From Streptomyces sp. NBC_00433 (lineage in GTDB: Bacteria > Actinomycetota > Actinomycetes > Streptomycetales > Streptomycetaceae): a DNA stretch of 64,000 bases. The notes below the pieces were generated by a model that was given only the letters and a program-made list of their open reading frames with translations, did no database searches and had not been told where the DNA came from. The translations under genes were made by a program, and so were the position numbers. Location: NCBI GenBank assembly GCA_036015235.1, contig CP107926.1:7253501-7317500 (forward strand), given 5' to 3'. Numbering within the stretch: the stretch's first letter is position 1; each line of letters opens with the position of its first letter. Shown here piece by piece: positions 3,731-5,443 of this stretch.

Positions 3731-4000
3731 TCAGCAGCCGTTGAGTATCGAGCTGAGCGCCGACTTCTCCGCGCTGTCCACGGTCAGCCCGTAGTAGTGC
3801 TTGACCTGCACCCAGGCGCGGGCATAGGTGCACTGGTACGACGCGCGCGGCAGCCACTCGGCCGGGTCGTCGTCGCCCTTGGAGCGGTTGGACGACGCCG
3901 AGACGGCGATGAGCTGCGGACGGGTCACGTCGTTGGCCAGGCCCTGCCGCTGGGCGGTGGTCCACGCCCACGCGCCGGAGTCCCACGCCTCGGCCAGCGG
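3731..4000 (-). pseudogene. C-terminal half of a split secreted HNH nuclease gene
   Basis: Read on the minus strand this begins at PLAEAWDSGAWAWTTAQRQ and runs through RPQLIAVSASSNRSKGDDDP to AEKSALSSILNGC, the normal end of the secreted HNH nuclease family common in Streptomyces. Everything before PLAEAW is missing at this place: in intact relatives the metal-binding Asp-His (DxDH) precedes it by a few residues. That upstream half is found at 5074-5443 in the same orientation. The fragment has no start codon or ribosome-binding site of its own and is presumably not translated. It retains the SNRSKG helix of the beta-beta-alpha metal fold. Confidence 0.85.
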
Positions 4001-4001
4001 C

Positions 4002-4238
4002 GAACGGCACCGAGCCAAGAGTGGACCGGCTTCCGCAATTCCCGCGGATCGTCCGACCGACTCCTCGACCTCGGCCGCTGTGCGAGCGCTGACTACACGC
4101 CTGACGCGGCAAAGGCAGGCTCACCGCGAGGAGGTGGCAAGGCTCCGTAAGGCCCTGGAAGTCGCGCAAGGCGAGAACCTCGCTCTGCGGCGAGCGCTCG
4201 CCCAGTACGAGTGGCAGGCACTGGCTGGTGACGTCTGA
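4002..4238 (+). pseudogene. 3' fragment of an unidentified coiled-coil protein gene
   Basis: An open frame runs from the insertion boundary to TGA at 4236-4238. The plausible part reads AAVRALTTRLTRQRQAHREE, then VARLRKALEVAQGENLALRR, then ALAQYEWQALAGDV, a heptad-like helix typical of coiled coils. No start codon with a ribosome-binding site precedes it, and the 5' part lies over the nuclease remnant in another frame, so this looks like the tail of a gene cut at the insertion boundary. It vaguely resembles the C-terminal coiled coil of accessory proteins encoded beside transposon recombinases, but I cannot name it. Confidence 0.45.
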
Positions 4239-4263
4239 TACCAGACAAACGTCACCAGCCAGT
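4220..4263. terminator. Bidirectional terminator between convergent genes
   Basis: A perfect 15-bp inverted repeat (ACTGGCTGGTGACGT at 4220-4234, its complement at 4249-4263) encloses a 14-nt loop that contains a smaller GTCTG/CAGAC repeat. The stop codon of the plus-strand fragment is inside the structure and the minus-strand gene ends 7 bases beyond it. Confidence 0.85.
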
Positions 4264-4269
4264 TCCCTT

Positions 4270-4800
4270 CTAACCGATGCCGGTGACGCTGAGAGCCGTG
4301 GTCCAGTTCGCCTTGATCGCGGTGCGGGCAGCGTTGAGGGTGATGGTGCCCTTGCACACCGCGTTCTTCAGTTTCGTCTCCACACCGTCCTTGGTGGTGG
4401 AGTTCTTGGTGCCGGAGTGCGGCTCGGGCCACAGGTTGTTCGGATCCCGCGGTGATCCGCCGAGTTCGAGGGGGATCTGGTGGTCTTCCTCGTAGTCGGA
4501 CATGTTCGTGTCGCTGTACCCGTAGTCGATGATCCCCTGTGCTTTGAGCGCGTTGGTGTAGGAGGTGGGCGGGCGGACGGTCGCCGTCCAGCCGGACACG
4601 CAGATCGTGGAGCCGATCGTCGACTGGGTGACAGCAGAGTTGTACACACCGGGAGTACACGACCGGTCCGGCAGCGGCAGGTAGGACTGGGAGCAGGTGC
4701 TGGCCTGTGCGGTGCCGGCGCTGACGCCGAGGATGAGGCCGCTGATCGCCAAGGCGAGAGCAGAACCGGTGGCAGTCGCTATCCGTATTCGGGAAGACAT
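4270..4800 (-). CDS. Small secreted HNH-like protein
   Basis: A 176-residue exported protein. The ATG at 4800 follows a good GAGGAGA site. Residues 1-33 form a Sec signal peptide ending near AQA-ST. The mature part has four cysteines, fitting extracellular disulphides, and an HNH-like segment DHQIPLELGGSPRDPNNLWP: an Asp-His pair followed by the P-L-E-L-G-G and N-L-W-P elements seen in many small secreted actinobacterial proteins of this kind. Nuclease activity is plausible but not shown. The gene sits wholly inside the insert that splits the neighbouring HNH nuclease gene, so the insert replaced one secreted HNH-type gene with another. Confidence 0.75.
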   Translation of the reverse strand: MSSRIRIATATGSALALAISGLILGVSAGTAQASTCSQSYLPLPDRSCTPGVYNSAVTQSTIGSTICVSGWTATVRPPTSYTNALKAQGIIDYGYSDTNMSDYEEDHQIPLELGGSPRDPNNLWPEPHSGTKNSTTKDGVETKLKNAVCKGTITLNAARTAIKANWTTALSVTGIG

Positions 4801-4918
4801 GGGAATCTCGATCTCCTCAGATAGTCAGGCTCATGACAGGAATGTTTCGAGGACGTTGGGCAGCGCTCTGTCGTCCGGGCCGTGCCGCCGATCGTTGGGC
4901 TCCGCGGCACAGTCCGGG

Positions 4919-5443
4919 CTACAGACCGCGGGTGGCCTGGGTGGGAAGATTCGTCGCCGTATCAGGAGCGGCCGGCCGGTCGGTCCGAAGGGCCATCGCA
5001 TGTGTGAGCGGTATGCCGTCGACGTCTTGAACTGCTGCTTCAGGCACCTGGTTCATCACGGGTGCAGATAAGAGGTGGTCGACGTCGAACGTCGACGGGT
5101 TGGTGGTGGTCGCCCCGTCGTAGGCGCTGGTCCAACTGCCCGACGTGGACTTGCAGGAGCTGTCGGTCACCACACCGCTGCCGTCGCGCTTGAGGACGTA
5201 CTCGCGGGTGTCACAGGTCCCGGAGATGGTGATCCAGGTCGGGAAGAGGTCGCGGTTGTAGGTGGAGGCGTGCGTCTCGGGGGTCGCCGCCATCCCGGCG
5301 AGGTAAGTGCGGGCGGTGGAGGCGGCGATGGGGGTGGGCAGCGCGGCCTGTGCGGTGCCGCTGCTCGCCAGCAGGGCGGTGGCGGCGAGTGCGGCGGCGC
5401 CGGCGATCGAGCCTATTCGGAGTGCGGGACGGTTTGCGGGCAT
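4919..5443 (-). pseudogene. N-terminal half of the split secreted HNH nuclease gene
   Basis: Residues 1-33 are a Sec signal peptide, followed by PTPIAASTARTYLAGM and RDLFPTWITISGTCDTREYV, the standard start of the secreted HNH nuclease family. Family similarity runs to FDVDHL, encoded down to about 5074, which carries the first metal-binding Asp-His. After that the frame continues for about 50 unrelated residues to a stop at 4919. The natural continuation (PLAEAWDSG...) lies at 3731-4000. Any product would be secreted but lack most of the active site. The start is supported by GGGAG about 9 nt before ATG 5443. Confidence 0.85.

Follow-up and report, generated by a model that had tools for sequence, protein, structure and literature searches.

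Transposon Tn554 of Staphylococcus aureus has radC as its target and carries resistance genes. The elements described here resemble it in a tnpA-tnpB-tnpC layout, strict target choice and, apparently, a 6-bp footprint; target and cargo are different. In Tn554 and in the SEs (strand-biased circularising integrative elements), the left hexamer comes from the target and the right hexamer from the donor, with no true target duplication (PMC10214605). The SEs, described from Gammaproteobacteria, differ from the present elements in having an extra gene, tfp. Tn554-like transposons are also known from actinobacteria, where a short and an abnormally long tyrosine recombinase are encoded together with a TnpC-like third gene (Van Houdt et al. 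2012, PMC3414803). The full-size relatives reported below have the same three-gene layout in a similar orientation. The part of that source drawn on here gives no target gene or cargo, whereas in the present elements the Asp-His codons of hydrolases are the target, the cargo can be a same-family copy, and one copy is internally deleted. In the open-licence literature we found no report of an Asp-His target, of targeting across several protein families or of same-family cargo; as far as that literature shows, and it cannot prove absence, all three are undescribed.

A nuclease gene split at its Asp-His codons

The window, by which we mean the whole stretch of 64,000 nucleotides analysed (bases 7,253,501-7,317,500 of the 8.99-Mb single-contig genome G000), contains on its minus strand the two halves of a gene for a secreted DUF1524/GmrSD_C nuclease. 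The N-half (5075-5443) runs from the signal peptide through the catalytic Asp-His and ends with FDVDH, the Asp codon at 5080-5078 and the His codon at 5077-5075; its frame extends past the break, into the insert, as far as 4919. The C-half (3731-4000) begins with PLAEAW, first codon 4000-3998, and ends with NGC and the stop codon. At least 17 genomes of the same GTDB genus have an intact homologue of about 214 aa, mostly in the same syntenic place, and the N-half is 83-95% identical in DNA to the syntenic ones. The site is empty in the closest relative, G011, which matches at 95-97% identity across each half of the nuclease gene and at about 96% across the gene on either side. Its intact orthologue scores 35.7 bits against a Pfam GmrSD_C cut-off of 23; the isolated window C-half, 97% identical to the G011 gene, scores 22.0 bits. 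In intact congeners the two halves are contiguous and two codons apart (for example GACCAC CTC GTC CCG CTG in L008), with no natural long insertion at this point. The preliminary description had read the locus as a nuclease gene broken by insertion at its active-site codons with a few bases lost at most, and its coordinates hold. The excess DNA is 4001-5071 (1,071 bp), and the GTC codon alone is missing relative to congeners. Judged from its sequence, the interrupted gene almost certainly no longer yields a working nuclease. The gene was not found in 8 of the 35 congeners, which makes an essential role unlikely.

The 1.07-kb insert holds one complete secreted ORF (4800-4270), which is, as first described, a different exported HNH-like gene, and one 5'-truncated gene. 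The latter had been noted simply as a gene fragment; it lies on the opposite strand (4001-4238, plus) and is identifiable as the 3' end of tnpC (DUF6262), with about the first 60 codons deleted. The remnant is 80% identical to S. caelestis TnpC across residues 64-133, and the S. caelestis protein exceeds the Pfam DUF6262 cut-off (44.8 bits versus 29). A plasmid search using the stub gave no match. Between the two convergent genes lies an inverted repeat (4217-4266, with 21-bp arms at 4217-4237 and 4246-4266), a probable bidirectional terminator. Given this tnpC identity, the insert can be recognised as what a deletion has left behind: the window copy keeps the left end, the cargo and the tnpC stub, and lacks tnpA, tnpB and the right end.

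The left element boundary is marked on the minus strand by CACCTC (5077-5072), the His codon plus the next codon, and these 6 bp following the Asp codon are presumed to be the recombination core. Immediately inside it is the left end of the element, TTATCTGCACC (5071-5061, minus strand), whose counterpart in a second occupied genome, G033, is GTATCCGCACC. The G033 insertion has the identical position, extends about 75 bp further on the right and has both ends present. There, GACCACCTC is followed by GTATCCGCACC at the left boundary and GGTGCGGATAC by CACCTCGTGCC at the right; the two ends are 11-bp perfect inverted repeats of each other and lie between two copies of CACCTC, one on each side of the insertion.

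These features, read with the full-size relatives on which the class assignment rests (the window copy itself being a stub), make it very probable that the insert derives from a Tn554-like tyrosine-recombinase transposon with tnpA-tnpB-tnpC and cargo, of which it is a non-autonomous copy with an internal deletion. The deletion would have joined tnpC at about codon 61 to the target C-half, taking tnpA, tnpB and the right end with it and sparing the gene for the secreted HNH-like protein along with the left end and the tnpC stub. The earlier remark that no transposase is present is accordingly true of the window copy and misleading about its origin. Since this copy has neither a recombinase nor a right end, its own mobility is not demonstrable.

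Full-size relatives and their target

Full elements were reached by way of the G033 right end: a search with its pattern led to S. ruber (G171), and a genome search with the S. ruber recombinase then gave seven loci. In S. ruber, about 10.6 kb separates the halves of a same-family nuclease gene, again at the same codons, and a tyrosine-recombinase gene adjoins the right end. A Tn3 transposase domain lies within these 10.6 kb between the nuclease halves (L042 10429-11616), so this element has itself been invaded. A match to the right-end pattern in G075 (L036/L038) lies in an unrelated gene and was dismissed as a chance match.

Six TnpA relatives have sequence past the right end, and at the same codon each of them adjoins a DUF1524 C-half. 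In S. colonosanans, S. caelestis and S. speibonae (L044, L045 and L046), the N-half is found 5-6 kb away with a tnpA-tnpB-tnpC set between, and the tnpC genes match the window stub at 75-80%. In the full relatives, TnpA (391 aa) and TnpB (749 aa) are both Phage_integrase proteins and TnpC is a DUF6262 protein. One further full element came from a second Streptomyces sample (G858, among 393 genomes), and the same codons also hold a full tnpA-tnpB-tnpC element in Mycolicibacterium canariasense. Ten DUF1524 genes occupied at these codons were counted: those of the window genome, G033, G034, S. ruber, S. colonosanans, S. caelestis, S. speibonae, G858, M. canariasense and NBC_01549, the last on its C-half only. 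A tnpABC relic that has lost the N-terminal part of tnpA was seen in G311 (L078), with no DUF1524 half nearby.

The boundaries define the target closely. Left boundaries read ATCGACCA(C/T)NTS followed by (G/T/A)TATC, right boundaries read GGATA(A/C) followed by CACNTSGT(G/C)CC, and an attB-type target sequence would lie around ATCGACCACCTCGTGCCGCTGGCC. CACNTS cores flank the full elements on both sides. The left and right hexamers are equal in seven of the ten elements with both ends readable (including CACGTC, CACATC and CACCTG pairs) and unequal in S. caelestis, G011 and G014, a pattern that fits either target duplication followed by later change or the Tn554/SE rule with its donor-derived right hexamer. 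In the mechanism we propose, this transposon clade would recognise the DNA that codes for a conserved metal-binding Asp-His pair (roughly ATC-GAC-CAC-NTS), and insertion across the His codon and the next codon would leave a CACNTS hexamer at either end. Hexamers on both sides and short inverted repeats would also be expected of a conventional DDE insertion sequence (11-bp inverted repeats, 6-bp target duplication). We consider such an origin scarcely credible, given that the full elements encode two tyrosine recombinases and a DUF6262 protein, that no DDE transposase was seen in the intact Streptomyces elements, that insertion is site-specific and that three of the hexamer pairs are unequal. 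Should the Tn554-like elements pass through circular or copied intermediates, the expected joint is GGTGCGGATA-CACNTS-GTATCC.

In the TnpA tree, the full elements that target DUF1524 genes form one clade (98/96), which is supported jointly with a sister clade (98/97). Members of the sister clade in G011 and G014 (L068 and L072) split genes of the window cargo's own HNH-like family between EYDH and L, and the member in G241 splits a peptide deformylase gene (Pfam, 87.3 bits) between HEIDH and L. One clade has in this way reached three protein families, each time at the catalytic Asp-His codons. The feature common to the targets is the DNA GACCA(C/T)NTS, coding Asp-His. We infer that it is this DNA that the recombinase reads, and that catalytic motifs are targeted because their codons are conserved. 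Within G000, a longer motif finds no other site with fewer than two mismatches. TnpA relatives outside the supported clade sit at other sites, and no DUF1524 or HNH-family halves were found at the more distant relatives in the class (40-50% identity). One TnpA lineage that lies further off (L066 and L065; G154 and G022) appears, by eye in G154, to adjoin a Tn3-type transposase gene at that gene's 3' end. The Asp-His target gives this poorly characterised group of actinobacterial transposons an identified natural attachment site, and the recombinases could serve as site-specific tools in Streptomyces.

Cargo genes and the question of replacement

The window cargo gene (4270-4800, minus strand) is complete and encodes a 176-aa exported protein with the motif EEDHQIPLELGG...NLW...KD..E. 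In general form this motif is EEDHxxPLxLGG...NLW...KDxxE, with D72, H73, N88, K103, D104 and E107 invariant. No curated profile in Pfam, PHROGs or NCBIfam matched the protein, and it is named HNH-like only for this reason. An AF2 model built from a 13-sequence alignment (pLDDT 92.6, compared with 33.6 from the single sequence) places strands at 69-73 and 89-93 and then a helix at 100-115 over the motif. Its structural matches are nearly all His-Me finger nucleases, at low Z (best 3.9); Foldseek against the PDB returned nothing better than E 1.9, and a sequence search matched no PDB chain. Substitutions in the gene are mostly third-position, and from the sequence it looks intact and under selection. 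Homologues occur, standing alone, in 60 of 150 family genomes. Among the loci with such homologues that were inspected, element DNA is shared only by G000, G033 and G034, so the cargo gene was probably captured by the element.

Two other elements carry an intact gene of the family that they break. The M. canariasense element brings a DUF1524 gene (L048 13715-14428; 60.4 bits) that is 69-71% identical to the broken one, and the G241 element (L067 8643-9230 and 8244-8552) brings a peptide deformylase gene that is 64-76% identical to the broken one. The M. canariasense carried copy has IEHI in place of IDHI, with GAGCAC in place of GACCAC. The G241 carried copy keeps GACCACCTC, so alteration of the site for immunity is not a rule. 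The same-family cargo is real, but it is not general: S. colonosanans, S. caelestis, S. speibonae, G011 and G014 have unrelated cargo (methyltransferase-like, MDMPI, PhzF-like, DUF6183 and others).

The preliminary description proposed that one exported nuclease locus had been replaced by another. This is structurally true of the window, and functional replacement is a plausible hypothesis, most other elements having unrelated cargo. Taken further, it would mean that the element group has been selected to supply a working substitute and that the window cargo functionally replaces the DUF1524 nuclease, which extends the transposon origin rather than competing with it. The two same-family copies speak for such a substitute, as do the exported HNH-like nature of the window cargo and its mostly third-position substitutions. 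The five elements with unrelated cargo speak against it; moreover, the window cargo and its target belong to different families, and the broken gene, not found in some congeners, is unlikely to be essential. On balance we think this reading unlikely, and the window cargo may or may not substitute for the split nuclease. A broader proposal, likewise less likely than not, is that the Tn554-like clade attaches at Asp-His-coding DNA in hydrolases that are unrelated to one another (two HNH-type nuclease families and peptide deformylase) and that it tends to bring along a functional substitute, so that hosts would exchange enzymes at the locus and not lose them. With two clear cases of intact same-family cargo, compensation of the target by a transposon is directly testable.

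Distribution within the genus

The occupied genomes are scattered on the host tree. In a tree of the single gene TerD, G000 groups with G011, G030, G025 and G004, all of them empty; G033 has the empty genomes G012 and G027 near it, and G034 has the empty G009. At third codon positions, the cargo genes of G000 and G033 are 93% identical, and their flanking genes and nuclease halves 73-78%. Scattered copies and a cargo more conserved than the flanking genes indicate horizontal spread of the insert, and the two observations together argue for separate acquisitions. On the tnpC side, the G000 breakpoint is about 7 bp away from that of G033, on which ground their deletions are probably separate, or else one has been reworked. 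Counted against the Tn554-like remnant as we describe it is the finding that G000 and G033 share only 86% identity in the non-coding DNA of the element.

Agreement between these two genomes in where the insert lies, which way it points and what it carries, and in the likeness of their tnpC stubs, would also be expected from a single old insertion inherited vertically in the genus, with precise loss repeated in most species. This is very improbable: in the TerD tree, empty species fall between the three occupied ones, the cargo is far closer between genomes than the flanks, the tnpC breakpoints do not coincide, and precise self-excision is hard for a copy that has no recombinase. Horizontal spread of the insert is the reading we retain. 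The insertion in G034 (L039 6663-10100), for which the target C-half was not found nearby, is the third in the genus and has about 2.5 kb of extra cargo, with ORFs of 494 aa (matching no Pfam family) and 212 aa.
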